Origin: Muribaculaceae bacterium
GTDB taxonomy: Bacteria > Bacteroidota > Bacteroidia > Bacteroidales > Muribaculaceae
Direction: 5' to 3'
Assembly (NCBI GenBank): GCA_029060285.1
Contig: JAIDUH010000096.1
Location: 1-36,124, forward strand
Length of the DNA: 36,124 bases
Part shown: positions 15,819 through 26,024 of the stretch, one piece after another
How the letters are laid out: each line of letters starts with the position of its first letter
Position numbering within the stretch: the first letter of the stretch is position 1
Notes under the pieces: generated by a model
Database searches by the model: none
What the model saw: only the letters and a program-made list of their open reading frames with translations
Told to the model about the DNA's origin: nothing
Made by a program: the position numbers and the translations under genes

Positions 15819-15825
15819 CAACCAT

Positions 15826-17364
15826 ATGACCAAAATACTCTGGGCAGACGACGAGATTGATCTTCTCAAGCCCCACATAATGTTTCTGAAGAATAAGGGC
15901 TATGATATCGTGACTGTAAGCAACGGTCAGGATGCCCTTGACACGCTCGACGCTGGAGGAATATCACTCGTCCTTCTCGATGAAAACATGCCCGGACTTT
16001 CCGGACTCGAGACCCTCTCGCGCATCAATCAGTCACACCCTGATATTCCGGTCATCATGATCACCAAGTCAGAGGAAGAAAATATCATGAACCAGGCTAT
16101 CGGCAACAAAATCACCGACTATCTGATCAAGCCTGTCAACCCGATGCAGATACTTCTATCCTTGAAGAAAAATCTACACAGCGCCAAGATAATAGCGGAG
16201 CAAACCTCCACAAGCTACATGCACGACTTCCAGAAGATATCCGCAGACATCAACGCTGCCTCCTCTCTGGAAGACTGGATGGACTGCTACCGTCGTCTTG
16301 TATATTGGGAGATGAAGCTGTCTGACTCCGAAAGCAATATGGACGAGATGCTCCTGATGCAGAAACGGGACGCAAACTCCAACTTCGCAAAATTCGTGAA
16401 ACGCAACTATGAGTCATGGATCACTTCAAGCCGCGATCATCTGATGAGCCCGGACATATTCAGTCGCCGCATATTCCCAATGCTTGACGCGGGCGACAAA
16501 GTATGCTTCGTACTTATCGACAACTTCCGTCTCGACCAGTGGCGCTGTGTGCAACCGCTTCTCTCGGAGTTCTTCAACGTCAGCGAAGATCTTTACACCA
16601 CTATCCTCCCTACTTCTACCCAATATGCCCGCAATTCCATCTTCTCCGGATTGATGCCACTTAAGATAAAGGAGATGTTTCCAAAGCTTTGGGTAGAGGA
16701 AGATGAGGATGAAGGACTCAACAACCATGAAGAGGAACTGATCGCAACTATGTTGGAGCGCTACCGTCGCAAAGACCGCTTCACATATACAAAACTCAAT
16801 GACTCATCAGCTTGCGAGAAGTTCATCGGCAAATTAAATTCAATCAAAGATGTGCAGCTCAACGTTATTGTGATGAATTTCATCGACATGCTGAGTCATG
16901 CCCGTACGGAATCGAAGATGATACGCGAACTTGCCAACAGCGACGCTGCATATCGTTCGCTGACTGAGTCATGGTTCAAGCATAGTTCAGCGGCTGAGAT
17001 GTTCCGCCGAATAGCAGAGTTAGGCTATAAAGTGGTTCTGACTACCGACCATGGCACTATACGCGTCGACAATCCGATAAAGGTGGTGGGAGACCGTAAC
17101 ACCAATACCAACCTACGCTATAAAGTAGGAAAGAATCTTAACTATAATCCCAAGCAAGTCTACGAGATAAAGGACCCGAAGAAGTATGGATTACCCTCTC
17201 CAAACCTGAGCAGCACCTACATTTTCGCCACCAACGAAGACTTCTTTTCCTATCCCAACAACTACAACTACTACGTGCAGTATTACACCGGCACCTTCCA
17301 GCACGGCGGCATCTCCCTCCAGGAAATGCTCGTCCCCCTCGTCACCCTCACCCCAAAATCCTAA
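15826..17364 (+). CDS. porX: PorX-type response regulator with PglZ phosphodiesterase domain
   Basis: Encodes 512 residues from the ATG at 15826; the frame extends into the upstream repeat, but MTKILWADDE is the receiver start. The receiver domain (1-120) has acidic D8/D9, phospho-acceptor D52 in LLDENMPG, T80 and K102. A helical linker leads to a PglZ (alkaline-phosphatase fold) domain whose expected metal ligands are visible: D232 (LIDNFR), nucleophile region PTSTQYARN (T265), D354/H358 (FIDMLSH), D408/H409 (TTDHGT) and H493 (QHGGIS). In P. gingivalis, PorX with sensor PorY controls type IX secretion, and PorX acts on phosphodiester substrates. The porW gene is adjacent; no porY or T9SS core gene is in the window. 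Confidence 0.9.
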   Translation: MTKILWADDEIDLLKPHIMFLKNKGYDIVTVSNGQDALDTLDAGGISLVLLDENMPGLSGLETLSRINQSHPDIPVIMITKSEEENIMNQAIGNKITDYLIKPVNPMQILLSLKKNLHSAKIIAEQTSTSYMHDFQKISADINAASSLEDWMDCYRRLVYWEMKLSDSESNMDEMLLMQKRDANSNFAKFVKRNYESWITSSRDHLMSPDIFSRRIFPMLDAGDKVCFVLIDNFRLDQWRCVQPLLSEFFNVSEDLYTTILPTSTQYARNSIFSGLMPLKIKEMFPKLWVEEDEDEGLNNHEEELIATMLERYRRKDRFTYTKLNDSSACEKFIGKLNSIKDVQLNVIVMNFIDMLSHARTESKMIRELANSDAAYRSLTESWFKHSSAAEMFRRIAELGYKVVLTTDHGTIRVDNPIKVVGDRNTNTNLRYKVGKNLNYNPKQVYEIKDPKKYGLPSPNLSSTYIFATNEDFFSYPNNYNYYVQYYTGTFQHGGISLQEMLVPLVTLTPKS

Positions 17365-17741
17365 GCCTCATGCCCAGGCGATAAACTGACTTTCAGACTT
17401 CAGTCAGCAGTAAAGTCTTATACAGGTGAAGTACATACATTTACATGTTTTATACCCGGGTTTTACCCATTCTTATCAAATTTTATAGGCAAGTTTTATA
17501 TAGAATCCGCACATTTTAATGGGGAGTCTTATACAAAATTTCAAATTTCAGGGATATTACACAAATTTGAAAAGATAAAAATTCAAACGTAAGACATATT
17601 TTCTGAAGATTCCAGAATGAAGTGCAAAAAATATGGCATTTTTATTTGGACTTCAACCGATAGAGAAAGAAGAGCCTTTCAAGCCGTCTAACCACAATGT
17701 TGGAGAAACATGCAATAAGACAGCTCATATCGAAGAAGTAT
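17365..17741. other. 377-bp AT-rich non-coding gap between porX and the ATPase-nuclease cassette
   Basis: I see no convincing gene here. The segment is AT-rich. It contains an 11-bp direct repeat AGTCTTATACA at 17414-17424 and 17525-17535, with several TTTTATA-like words between. A weak inverted repeat, CTGACT...AGTCAG, lies near 17386-17407. It receives transcription from both sides (porX and the minus-strand nuclease gene), but neither end shows a strong terminator. Confidence 0.6.
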
Positions 17742-18350
17742 TTATACTTCCGCGTCATTTTTAAAATATAGGGGAATACCGTCTGTATCCAACAAGAACT
17801 GCGCTGCAAGTTTCTTCTGATAAGCGTTATGGCGGGGAACAGTACGGTTGAAAACAGCAAAAGCTTCCACATTCACTACATCCTGCAATTTAACGCCTAC
17901 TTTTTTACATCGGTCAACGACATCCATGATGGTTTGAGTCAGCTGAAGTTTAGCCTTCTCATAGTTCCCTTTAATCGATGCTTCCGTATTGTTGGAGGCA
18001 TTGGATTTAAATTCTACAAACCCTAAATAATCATTCGTAAGCAACGCACAATCACATTTACTGTCCGCATAGTAGAGAATTCCATCTATATGCCAAAGAA
18101 AGAGATCTTTATGACTGCGATTGATGACTTTGAACGTTTTATCAGTACCTAAGCCACGAGTATCAAGGAGGAAAATCGAATGCCCGGTATTGACATCATC
18201 GATTATGAATACATTACCTCTGTCAGTCCATTCAAACAGATAATCGAGATAATCACTATCATTTGATACCATTTGGAATACTTTCTGATCTCCAAAAGCA
18301 TCTTTCAGTCGGAGCCGTATGATGGGAGTAAAGTCCATAGTGATTTTCAT
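17742..18350 (-). CDS. uncharacterised protein with PD-(D/E)XK-like nuclease signature
   Basis: Encodes 202 residues that I do not recognise as a named family. The most telling stretch is CDCALLTNDYLGFVEFK (residues 99-115): an Asp (D100), a turn, a hydrophobic strand and E113-F-K115. This is the order and spacing of the PD-(D/E)XK nuclease core. A following helix has Q136 and basic residues. No signal peptide or membrane segment is seen, so it is cytosolic. Its ATG overlaps the stop of the upstream ATPase gene (ATGA, 18347-18350), so the two are translationally coupled and likely work together. An ATP-gated DNA- or RNA-cutting effector is a reasonable guess, but nuclease activity is inferred only from the motif. 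Confidence 0.6.
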   Translation of the reverse strand: MKITMDFTPIIRLRLKDAFGDQKVFQMVSNDSDYLDYLFEWTDRGNVFIIDDVNTGHSIFLLDTRGLGTDKTFKVINRSHKDLFLWHIDGILYYADSKCDCALLTNDYLGFVEFKSNASNNTEASIKGNYEKAKLQLTQTIMDVVDRCKKVGVKLQDVVNVEAFAVFNRTVPRHNAYQKKLAAQFLLDTDGIPLYFKNDAEV

Positions 18351-19543
18351 TCATGGAGTTTACTCTTGTATTCCATCACAGTTCTTTGCAAGGCATCGAA
18401 CTCATCGCCTAATGTTTCCGACACTCCATCCAAGGAGTTATAGTCGATCATGCCGGTCTCATCATCCAGAAGCGAACGACAGTACATACCTCCGTTTATG
18501 TCTTTACCCAAGGAGTAGACCGAACACTCTTTTAAAGTCAGCCTATAAGGATCCGGTAGAATCCCATCGATATATTTCTTGATGCCCTGCCCATATTTTT
18601 CAGCCAACATCCCGGCAAACAGTATGTTGTTCATCGCAGCCAGTAGGTAAGGACTATGAGTCGTGACAGTCAAGGTACGCCCAAGATGTTTCACTGTCTT
18701 AAGCAAATACCTAAACAATTCAACTTGCTTTGTCGGAAAGAGATTGCACTCTGGTTCCTCTATTACATAAGAGGTGTAATACCGTTTTGACACAGCATAA
18801 TTAATCACAAGCATCAAAGGCACAAGAGACTGGATTCCCGATGAGGCTGCTGTCATAGGAATATTCTTATGGGTTTGATCAATTACGATTGAATCTTCGG
18901 TTGCCTCATGCTTGAATTCAATACCCAGTAAAGGAATATCGAAACGCGGGTATTCCGATTTGGCATTCCCAAGCTCCACCATGAATCGAAGAAGATTTTT
19001 AGGAATGGTGGCGTTAGCCAACGCCAATGCAGGCATTAGGTTGGTTAGAACCGAATAGATGATTCTTTCCGCCGGAATATATATGGAATTCGTAACATTA
19101 TCCAGACGGGTGTTAACATCCATATCCCCACCGGTAAATCTCGAGTCTCCAACATTATGACTTTTCGAAAATCTGAGAATCTCATCAGCAATCATCGTTT
19201 TGTCGGAAATCACTTTACCGTCTGTGCTTATCGAAGAGGATATACCTTCTGGACTGCATTCAACGTGAAGATGCCAATCATCATCGATCTCTTCATAAAC
19301 AACTTGGTACTTACCGTCAAGATATACCAGCAGATTATGGTCCTTCAGCATGCTATGCCACGCATCAACATCATCTTTTATCAATCTATACAGGCTTATG
19401 GCATCCGTAAAGACCGCTATGAGTTTTGCCATAGTGCTTTTTCCGATGGCCTGCTCACCTATAAACATATTGATGGTCCGCAATTCCACGGTGGCATTGC
19501 TTATCGGTCCGAAGTTTTCTATGTGCAGTGTTCTCTTTCTCAT
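18347..19543 (-). CDS. ABC/AAA-type ATPase of the OLD/RecF-like class, paired with the putative nuclease
   Basis: Encodes 398 residues from the ATG at 19543; the promoter lies so close upstream that the TTG at 19555 would leave almost no leader. LHIENFGPISNATVEL opens the protein as in AAA_15/RecF-like ATPases. Walker A is GEQAIGKST (29-37), the signature-like SSGIQSLVP is at 234-242, Walker B is YVIEEPECNLFP (259-270) with an EEPE core instead of the usual DEPE, and the H-loop TTHSPYLL is at 294-301. A YIPAER motif lies at about 155. A TOPRIM domain (as in OLD) is absent; the downstream gene probably supplies the nuclease. Similar ATPase-effector pairs occur in anti-phage defence; that role here is inference. 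Confidence 0.85.
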   Translation of the reverse strand: MRKRTLHIENFGPISNATVELRTINMFIGEQAIGKSTMAKLIAVFTDAISLYRLIKDDVDAWHSMLKDHNLLVYLDGKYQVVYEEIDDDWHLHVECSPEGISSSISTDGKVISDKTMIADEILRFSKSHNVGDSRFTGGDMDVNTRLDNVTNSIYIPAERIIYSVLTNLMPALALANATIPKNLLRFMVELGNAKSEYPRFDIPLLGIEFKHEATEDSIVIDQTHKNIPMTAASSGIQSLVPLMLVINYAVSKRYYTSYVIEEPECNLFPTKQVELFRYLLKTVKHLGRTLTVTTHSPYLLAAMNNILFAGMLAEKYGQGIKKYIDGILPDPYRLTLKECSVYSLGKDINGGMYCRSLLDDETGMIDYNSLDGVSETLGDEFDALQRTVMEYKSKLHE

Positions 19544-19568
19544 GATTCCGGGCAAAAGATTTGACTCA

Positions 19569-19600
19569 CAAAATTAACGAAAAAAATCCTTACAGCCAAA
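19569..19600 (-). promoter_or_regulatory. Bacteroidetes-type promoter for the ATPase-nuclease cassette
   Basis: On the minus strand, TTTG (plus 19597-19600) is followed after exactly 20 bp by TAATTTTG (plus 19569-19576), an ideal -33/-7 pair. It predicts a transcript starting about 20 nt before the ATG at 19543, so the two genes form their own transcription unit. Confidence 0.8.
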
Positions 19601-19957
19601 TATATCTTGAATACATCACCATATCACCCACCAACTTTTTCGGCCTCTCATCGCTCCACACGGCTCTTTCATTTAGCTTCTCTCTTCCAAAAGTACATGA
19701 TTGTGATGCGAACTCAGTGAGCACATTCCTCCCCCCCGGCGGTCGCTGCATGATAGAGCCATCGGAAAGACATCATAACTGAAAGATCCCTGCCATATAG
19801 AGCAAACCCGGGAAAACGATTCTGTTCGTTTTTCCGGGTTTGCCCTTCCATTATACCTTAATATTTCTAACAATTCGTTATGCTTTACTTATAAGACATC
19901 ACAAATTGAAATAAGTTGCATCCTCGCCAATCACTTTTAGCAATTTTTCACATTTAT
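19601..19957. other. non-coding gap between the ATPase cassette and the DUF2461 gene
   Basis: No supported gene is seen in about 350 bp. The segment contains a run of seven C (about 19731-19737) and the large hairpin at 19802-19843. Short open frames on both strands have no recognisable start context or domain. Confidence 0.55.
19802..19843 (-). terminator. large hairpin, probable terminator for the DUF2461 gene
   Basis: GCAAACCCGG (19802-19811) pairs perfectly with CCGGGTTTGC (19834-19843), and the inner A-rich and T-rich arms extend the stem to about 18 bp. The stem lies about 115 nt beyond the DUF2461 stop on the minus strand. U-rich tails are weak on both sides. Confidence 0.55.
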
Positions 19958-20650
19958 TTATCTTCTTTTGGGAGTACGGACAGCCAACTCAGGATGCTCT
20001 TCGAGTGTAAAGTTGAAGAAATCATCATAGGGCTTCAATATTCGGAAGAGATTTGAGAGCTTTTTGACAATATTTTTTGATGCCATATCCCTGTCCGTAA
20101 GTGTGGCGGCATATACAAAGCTCTTTGGCTTTAGAAGTTCGATATGTTCCCAGTCTTTCGGGAATCCCTTTGGAGCTGTCTTCAGGGGTTCCTGCCAATA
20201 TGGCTCATAATGTTCCGCAAATTCCGAGTTCTGTATTATGGCAAGATATTCATCAATATTGTTGTAAATTTCACTGCGATATTCTTTCAGCAAAGGAGCT
20301 TCCGGGAACCATGCACCGCCGGCTACAAGACACTCCCCCGGTTGTAAATGCACATAATATCCGCAGAACTCACTCTTCTTTCCTCCTTTTGGATTGATAT
20401 AGATGCCGATGTGATCCTTATAGGGAGTCTTGTCGGCCGAAAAACGGGTATCACGATAGATTCTGTAAAGACAATCCGAGGGTGTCAGCATCGCAGCTTC
20501 CGGCTCTATCTCTGTCAACGCATCAATAAGCTGCTGCGTAAAAGCTTCCACCTGAGCCTTTACCCTCATATATTCATCCTTATGCTCGTTAAACCAGTCA
20601 CGGTTATTGTTAGCCGCCAACTGCTTCAAAAATTCCAATACTTCTTTCAT
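19958..20650 (-). CDS. DUF2461 domain-containing protein
   Basis: Encodes 230 residues from the ATG at 20650, the normal length for DUF2461. Family landmarks are FLKQLAANNNRDWFNEHK at the N-terminus, YRIYRDTRFSADKTPYKDH at about 62-80, GYYVHLQPGE, and KGFPKDWEHIELLKPKSF near the C-terminus. The family is widespread in bacteria and its biochemical role is not established; a cytosolic protein is expected. The frame stays open for 37 more codons upstream, through a GC-rich element, but the family alignment begins at this Met. The divergent ECF sigma gene begins about 200 bp away. Confidence 0.9.
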   Translation of the reverse strand: MKEVLEFLKQLAANNNRDWFNEHKDEYMRVKAQVEAFTQQLIDALTEIEPEAAMLTPSDCLYRIYRDTRFSADKTPYKDHIGIYINPKGGKKSEFCGYYVHLQPGECLVAGGAWFPEAPLLKEYRSEIYNNIDEYLAIIQNSEFAEHYEPYWQEPLKTAPKGFPKDWEHIELLKPKSFVYAATLTDRDMASKNIVKKLSNLFRILKPYDDFFNFTLEEHPELAVRTPKRR

Positions 20651-20663
20651 TCTAAATTTTATT

Positions 20664-20780
20664 AATTCAAGTTTCGCTTGCTCTTGCATAAAGATTTGCA
20701 ATACCTCAGCGCAGGAGCCGCGTTTGTTCTCAGCGAACACCCTCCGGGCGATGCTAAGCAACAGCCTCGGGGAAGCGCTT
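20664..20780. repeat. GC-rich structured element between DUF2461 and the ECF sigma gene
   Basis: This stretch stands out from the AT-rich gap around it. It contains several short inverted repeats (GTTC/GAAC around a GCTGA loop; CAAG/CTTG around CGAAA; TTGCA/TGCAA) and two GCTGAG words on the minus strand. It abuts ATTCTAAATT at 20650-20660, the same word found in the heptamer arrays elsewhere in the window. It may be a dispersed repeat element; no second copy is in the window. Confidence 0.4.
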
Positions 20781-25598: not shown

Positions 25599-25672
25599 GG
25601 TGCGGTAGTTCAGCTGGTTAGAATGCCGGCCTGTCACGCCGGAGGTCGCGGGTTCAAGTCCCGTCCGCACCG
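25599..25672 (+). tRNA. tRNA-Asp (anticodon GTC), copy 1
   Basis: A 74-nt cloverleaf with acceptor pairing GGTGCGG/CCGCACC, D-arm GTTCAGCTGGTTAGAAT, anticodon stem GCCGG/CCGGA-type pairing around CTGTCAC (GTC at 25633-25635), and T-arm GCGGGTTCAAGTCCCGT. The discriminator base is G and the next bases are CCG, so CCA is not encoded and must be added by the CCA-adding enzyme. Confidence 0.97.
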
Positions 25673-25685
25673 CCGAGGAGAGAGG

Positions 25686-25726
25686 AAGAGCAGTATGGTA
25701 AACTTCGGTTTCCTACTGCTCTTTTT
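25686..25726 (+). terminator. terminator of the first tRNA-Asp gene
   Basis: AAGAGCAGTA (25686-25695) pairs with TACTGCTCTT (25714-25723), followed by a T run. The loop contains CTTCGG. Confidence 0.9.
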
Positions 25727-25807
25727 CATTCCGGCAATATACTTATTCCTTATGTATCCTCGTTATTTCCCAAGTTTTTTTAACATCACAACACTCATAT
25801 TTTCAAT

Positions 25808-25838
25808 CAATTCTAAATTCTAAATTCTAAATTCTAAA
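25808..25838. repeat. ATTCTAA heptamer tandem array between the tRNA-Asp genes
   Basis: Four successive ATTCTAA units lie just upstream of the second tRNA promoter, within the stretch that separates the two duplicated units. The same unit occurs before deoC (4229-4264). Confidence 0.85.
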
Positions 25839-25854
25839 TTTTTTCACCGGAAAA

Positions 25855-25886
25855 TTTGCGTGAATGAAAAATTTGTTGTAACTTTG
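25855..25886 (+). promoter_or_regulatory. promoter of the second tRNA-Asp gene
   Basis: TTTG (25855-25858), a 20-bp spacer and TAACTTTG (25879-25886). Both boxes lie exactly 339 bp downstream of their counterparts in copy 1. The leader keeps a CGGG...CCCG hairpin although its loop differs. Confidence 0.85.
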
Positions 25887-25937
25887 CACTCGCAATCGGG
25901 AAACAACACCCGTTAGCAACTCTCACAAGAGAAATTT

Positions 25938-26011
25938 GGTGCGGTAGTTCAGCTGGTTAGAATGCCGGCCTGTCACGCCGGAGGTCGCGGGTTCAAGTCC
26001 CGTCCGCACCG
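25938..26011 (+). tRNA. tRNA-Asp (anticodon GTC), copy 2
   Basis: Identical in all 74 bases to copy 1, with the anticodon GTC at 25972-25974, discriminator G and no encoded CCA. It has its own promoter and terminator. Confidence 0.97.
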
Positions 26012-26024
26012 CCGAGGAGAGAGG

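Follow-up and report, generated by a model that had tools for sequence, protein, structure and literature searches.

The 36,124-nucleotide stretch of DNA analysed in this study, referred to below as the window (contig JAIDUH010000096.1 of the Muribaculaceae bacterium assembly GCA_029060285.1), carries two adjacent genes, an ABC-type ATPase (gene A) and a nuclease-like protein (gene B), which a first-pass annotation had proposed as an undescribed defence cassette. Both open reading frames (ORFs) were found where that annotation had placed them (Table 1), and the AT-rich character it ascribed to the gaps on both sides of the pair is borne out by GC contents of 0.34 and 0.41, against 0.47 for the window. 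For A, an alternative TTG start at 19555 gives 402 residues. The 4 bp said to be shared by the stop of A and the start of B exist when the longest ORFs are taken, but not if B starts at M5. B homologues are most often 198 residues long, position 1 is a gap in 68 of 85 aligned rows and positions 2-4 are gapped in 76-79 of the 85. Since the first four residues are absent from most aligned rows, the working start of B may be M5, with its first base at 18338 (198 residues), and the overlap may therefore belong only to the longest-ORF start. The "ideal" promoter claimed for the pair was recovered only in part: a sigma-70 scan found 5 promoters against a mean of 7.5 in shuffled sequences, no excess over chance, but a candidate of the form TTTG-N20-TAATTTTG, which agrees with what we take to be the Bacteroidota-type consensus, ends about 25 nt ahead of the start of A. 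The motif TAnnTTTG occurs three times within 200 bp upstream of A, and of 12 related loci 5 have it no more than about 35 nt from where A begins.

Table 1. Features of the gene pair and of its insertion site (window coordinates)
Feature	Position	Strand	Basis or remark
porX-type response regulator with PglZ domain (left flank)	15823..17364	plus	Pfam PglZ 3.9e-35, Response_reg 9.8e-23
Inserted segment, absent at the matching site of a same-genus relative (G078, L088)	17363..19830		blastn of flanks
Gene B, PD-(D/E)XK-like nuclease candidate (PDC-M29B)	17742..18350	minus	202 residues
Gene A, OLD/Septu-like ABC ATPase (AAA_15/AAA_21; PDC-M29A)	18347..19543	minus	398 residues from conserved ATG
Bacteroidota-type promoter candidate TTTG-N20-TAATTTTG, upstream of A	19569..19600	minus	sequence reading
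Inverted repeat, probable DUF2461 terminator	19799..19846		
DUF2461 gene (right flank)	19958..20680	minus	Pfam DUF2461 2.1e-72

The ATPase motifs that had been read in A are Walker A GEQAIGKST (residues 29-37), the SSG signature (234-236), Walker B EEPE (262-265) and the H-loop H296; further features are R160 and a C-terminal extension at about 325-398. Across 60 aligned A sequences G29, G34, K35, S36, R160, S234-G236, E262, E263, E265 and H296 were invariant, and in a chosen wider set K35, S36, R160, G236, E262, E263 and H296 were kept in all 29 rows and E265 in 28. Missing from this wider residue table are B from loci L103 and L104 as well as A and B from L049, L052, L053, L105 and L118, and its rows L048 and L107 are one pair counted twice. 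In Pfam, A matched AAA_15 (4.9e-21) and AAA_21, and beyond these only other AAA-type families and, weakly, P-loop families. Of 101 families matched in PADLOC-DB 2.0.0, PDC-M29A was the best (3e-38), the next was AriA (4.9e-23), and PD-T4-4_A (9.7e-17), PtuA (1.3e-8) and GajA also matched; because the AriA, GajA and PtuA models match, A is labelled OLD-type here. A sequence search of solved structures with A gave nothing significant (best 0.053).

The key residues of B are D89, D100, E113, K115 and Q136. D100, E113-F-K115 and Q136 were invariant in 71 aligned B sequences, and with such invariance of D100 and E113-F-K115 the nuclease-like motif noticed in the first pass is therefore not due to chance. 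The same D, ExK and Q were kept in all 11 distant B rows (ten relatives and a second pair of locus L008, with L100 excluded), and in the wider set D89, D100 and Q136 were present in 27 of 27 rows and E113 and K115 in 26, the exception being L114, in which VELK is shifted by two columns. A conserved D, a (D/E)xK and a supporting Q constitute the pattern of the PD-(D/E)XK superfamily. In the AlphaFold model (predicted local distance difference test score, pLDDT, 93.7), D100, E113 and K115 are predicted to occupy the secondary-structure positions of a PD-(D/E)XK site, and 20 of the 24 top VIA neighbours of this model, such as Card1/Can2, FokI, N.BspD6I and HamA, are what we take to be PD-(D/E)XK enzymes; acetyl-CoA carboxylase rows in the VIA result were taken as chance. 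Foldseek with B gave no match at E < 0.001 in PDB or viral models, a sequence search of solved structures nothing significant (best 0.38), and Pfam and NCBIfam no match at E up to 1. The scattered Pfam matches of individual B rows, including one to interleukin-15 (9.6e-6), were also taken as chance. The sole PADLOC-DB family matched by B was PDC-M29B (2.8e-7, residues 75-194), and this model matches 70 of the 71 B rows. One outlying locus, L100 (G009:C24:14075-14407), encodes a 233-residue protein adjoining a 389-residue P-loop protein; it matches PDC-M29B weakly (1.3e-5) and has ELS in place of ExK, so that the catalytic lysine is apparently missing.

A and B are one conserved linked unit with intact motifs, as the first pass had supposed. 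In the genome-contig scan every one of the 12 loci encoding B had A immediately upstream of it. The A-side search found at least 20 places at E <= 1e-25, in at least 15 of 393 genomes of the order, and a B-type ORF followed directly downstream in 18 of the 20, window included; 16 of these ORFs were recognised by a profile from which L100 was excluded, and two (L103 and L104) by reading the pattern D...VELK...Q. The remaining two places, L108 and L113, have no B-type ORF downstream, and the A of L113 is a 133-residue piece. The distances of the A and B proteins were correlated with r 0.93 over 20 of 23 pairs (L049, L051 and L052 omitted), a value reached by none of 9999 permutations.

This unit is not undescribed, as the first pass had held, because PADLOC-DB already lists the pair as PDC-M29 and WonAB, a tested system, has the same architecture (PMC12137116). 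The pair is a member of an already catalogued candidate family and not a new category. Both genes match PDC-M29, judged by E-values with PADLOC's own cut-offs set aside, and are adjacent on one strand as in that entry. The match has its differences: B is covered over residues 75-194 only, PDC-M29A is matched more closely by the second pair of L008 (2.3e-52), and in the window's group the N-terminal part is longer and a C99-D100-C101 triplet is invariant in 71 rows. PDC-M29 reportedly comes from the preprint of Payne et al. 2024, and a literature search by name found no published phage test of it. PMC12988326 describes PDCs as candidate systems found by "guilt by embedding", with validation pending for most in the set treated there.

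As described in PMC12137116, WonAB of the WASA-1 prophage of V. cholerae consists of the OLD-type ABC ATPase WonA and the PD-(D/E)xK protein WonB, both required for its anti-phage activity; it is assigned to a broader, uncharacterised family in which ABC-ATPase sensors are combined with nuclease effectors, and PD-T4-4 is grouped with it. WonA residues K34, R182, E300 and H333 and WonB residue K71 were required. By numbering only, the four WonA residues may correspond to K35, R160, E263 and H296 of A, and E300/H333 and E263/H296 are 33 residues apart in both proteins. The likeness, a small PD-(D/E)xK nuclease encoded behind an OLD-type ABC ATPase, is one of architecture; WonB is of 16.1 kDa whereas B has 202 (or 198) residues, and WonAB is prophage-borne. 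A shorter B type of about 157-165 residues (107 in L105), with CD[YF]xF...[VL]ELK, stands behind divergent A proteins in L103, L104, L105, L114 and L118 and is closer in size to WonB than the B of the window. As for PD-T4-4, its A model matches A, but B matches no PADLOC family other than PDC-M29B.

The same source bears on whether B could be a toxin restrained by A, in which case the pair would be a selfish or stabilising toxin-antitoxin element maintained through addiction more than through phage defence. The patchy, tightly linked arrangement, with a nuclease-like gene downstream of its partner, would fit such an element. However, the catalytic motifs of the ATPase, kept in all 29 rows of the wider set, would be needless for simple sequestration, and in WonAB overproduced WonB was toxic only with active WonA, the requirement for WonA arguing there against a toxin-antitoxin system (PMC12137116). 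We therefore regard this explanation as improbable.

Membership in Septu, PARIS or Gabija/OLD was ruled out by the partner or fused domain, which is neither HNH nor TOPRIM; no TOPRIM, HNH, PtuB or AriB model of Pfam, NCBIfam or PADLOC matched B, in line with the absence of a TOPRIM, HNH or DUF4435 partner reported in the first pass. PARIS resembles the pair in that the AriA model matches A, but AriB is a Toprim nuclease and no AriB (Toprim/DUF4435) model matches B. In Gabija and OLD the TOPRIM domain is fused to the ATPase, whereas A, with its 398 residues, has no TOPRIM by Pfam. Lamassu combines an SMC-like LmuB with a Cap4-type LmuA, and is similar in idea as an SMC-like ATPase with a PD-(D/E)XK effector; no Lamassu model was among the best 25 of 101 families for A, nor among those for B, and relatives of Lamassu were absent from the VIA rows of both proteins, which is no evidence against kinship. 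A retron was also rejected, since Rfam at the gathering threshold found only two tRNAs and the signal recognition particle RNA in the window and the ORFs around the pair are, by eye, not reverse transcriptase-like. In Septu, according to PMC13096335, PtuB is an HNH nuclease, and the E. coli system, which depends on ATPase and nuclease alike, cleaves tRNA-Tyr within the variable loop. B is different, with the D...ExK...Q pattern in place of an HNH or PtuB match.

The likeness to PtuAB of Septu and of retron Ec78/Eco7 lies in the predicted structure of A (pLDDT 85.5), for which the top VIA rows by Z are PtuA of retron Ec78 and Septu (Z 17.4, root mean square deviation 8.8, 297 residues aligned; Z 17.2, deviation 4.5, 284 aligned). 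Rad50 and SMC heads follow from Z 16.5 downward, and by Foldseek E-value Rad50 ranked first (6.2e-10). On this model the likeness to Septu is one of two near-equal readings of A, because PtuA leads by Z and Rad50 by E-value. If A were a DNA-sensing clamp of the Rad50/SMC or Lamassu kind and B a DNA nuclease, phage or plasmid DNA would be attacked directly. Against this, the top VIA match by Z is PtuA, and the relatives of this ATPase class with known targets mostly cut tRNA or stop translation; with PtuA ahead of Rad50 by only about 1 in Z, and behind it by Foldseek, the objection is not a strong one. We consider a DNA nuclease rather unlikely. RNA, that is tRNA or rRNA, seems somewhat more likely than DNA as the target: under WonAB the chromosome stays intact and translation ceases, with rRNA or tRNA proposed as its target (PMC12137116), and Septu/retron-Eco7 and PARIS cut tRNA.

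The pair is a mobile, acquired cassette. B was found in at least 10 of the 393 genomes of the order, in 10 of 207 genera, and among 61 near relatives only in the window's own genome (in none of the 36 that are at least 90% complete); at most eight candidates per genome were scored for B and at most four for A, and both counts are lower bounds. By record titles the family occurs in draft genomes of Muribaculaceae, Prevotella-type and rumen Bacteroidales. The presence/absence variation at the porX-DUF2461 site that the first pass had suggested looking for was also found. In the alignment with the empty site (L088, genome G078) the window matches as far as 17362 and again from 19831 onward, with about 100 bp of L088 between the two matches, and positions 19831-19866 are conserved. 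The DUF2461 gene occurs in 49 of the 61 genus genomes, and both flanks lie on one contig in five of them (G000, G005, G012, G077 and G078; L085, L088 and L091-L093), where the interval is different each time, from 0.33 to 38 kb: the window's genome has 2.6 kb with the pair, G078 0.33 kb with no ORF of at least 80 residues, G012 2.1 kb with a single AAA-ATPase_like/PDDEXK_9 gene, G005 13.7 kb including two such genes and an AAA_14/DUF4143 gene, and G077 38 kb. One relative is thus empty at this site, and the other three hold different genes. The interval may be an integration hotspot. The three AAA-ATPase_like/PDDEXK_9 genes of G012 and G005 are once more an ATPase plus a nuclease. Carriage as prophage or plasmid cargo was rejected, B being unmatched in viral_contigs, plasmids and phages and A in viral_contigs, by scans that relied on short exact patterns or tblastn hits and that distant copies may escape.

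These site data also bear on whether the pair could be a DNA repair or transposon-associated ATPase and nuclease of no immune role, lying in a variable locus. The Rad50-like fold of A and the AAA-ATPase_like/PDDEXK_9 and AAA_14/DUF4143 genes at the same site in relatives could be taken that way, but the pair is too rare for repair, the window's segment holds short repeats only and no transposase- or integrase-like gene was seen in it, and defence genes lie near the pair in other hosts. This explanation appears very improbable indeed.

Those neighbours were surveyed in every related locus except the short L005, 11 out of 12, covering 105 proteins of at least 120 residues within about 6.5 kb and, in the tallies, 25 of 58 PADLOC and 25 of 106 Pfam families. 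Proximity to other defence or candidate-defence genes was found in at least 4 of the 11 loci: L009 has a type II restriction-modification set, L012 HEC-02A/B, L014 HEC-01A, and L008 the second, diverged A/B pair (L008:4172-5893), which lies some 3 kb upstream of its main pair. PDC-M13 and PDC-M10, unplaced, were among the neighbour matches listed. An inspection of 10 of the 105 proteins showed polysaccharide genes close to the pair in L008, L012, L013 and L014; they include a glycosyltransferase, a Wzt-type ABC protein, a DegT aminotransferase and a GDP-mannose dehydratase. In L003 and L011 the pair lies downstream of rpoC, the rpoC of L011 being 98% identical to that of L003, and because two genomes share this position it suggests a second preferred site. 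Elsewhere in the window, two neighbouring tRNA-Asp (GTC) genes with equal Rfam scores occupy 25599-26013.

Based on the pairing, the conservation of the motifs, the predicted folds, the patchy occurrence and the empty site, the defence genes near some of the copies and the catalogue match, we read the pair as a Bacteroidales branch of the class that joins an OLD-type ABC ATPase to a PD-(D/E)XK nuclease, and it is probably a mobile two-gene anti-phage system of this class (PDC-M29; WonAB architecture). Two caveats apply to this evidence: the shared history of linked genes would also give the correlation between A and B, and the evidence from defence neighbours is suggestive only, because such regions are variable by nature. 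The observations of the first-pass annotation are confirmed and its interpretation is partly supported. As for the mechanism, we infer that A and B would form a complex, in which a dimer of A, formed around ATP, would hold B on its C-terminal extension. A would sense an infection signal as the trigger and license B, which would cut nucleic acid, presumably tRNA or rRNA and less likely DNA, by means of D100, E113 and K115. Protection against phage would come from abortion of the infection by shutdown of the cell, and not from sequence-specific restriction.

The cysteines of the two proteins allow a more specific and highly doubtful proposal. Besides C99 and C101 of B, C340 and C355 in the C-terminal extension of A are invariant in 60 A rows; in the chosen wider set C340 is found in 13 of 13 rows of the window's branch and is absent from all 16 A rows that are more distant; of 14 B rows at such a distance, 9 have lost C101. 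The window's branch could thus work as a separate kind of immune switch, its PD-(D/E)XK RNase being gated by the ATPase: metal binding or a disulphide between C99/C101 and C340/C355 across the A-B interface would control cleavage, and the catalytic aspartate D100 would sit inside the C99-D100-C101 triplet. Against this, L007 has S for C355, C355 is common in distant rows too, and common ancestry alone would yield the same co-occurrence of cysteines.

To our knowledge, few defence systems of Bacteroidales have been tested so far. With named catalytic residues, a near-constant partner and a defined insertion with an empty site, the catalogue entry PDC-M29 becomes a concrete hypothesis, and ABC-ATPase sensors coupled to PD-(D/E)XK effectors, a class whose tested example is WonAB, would be extended to Bacteroidales.
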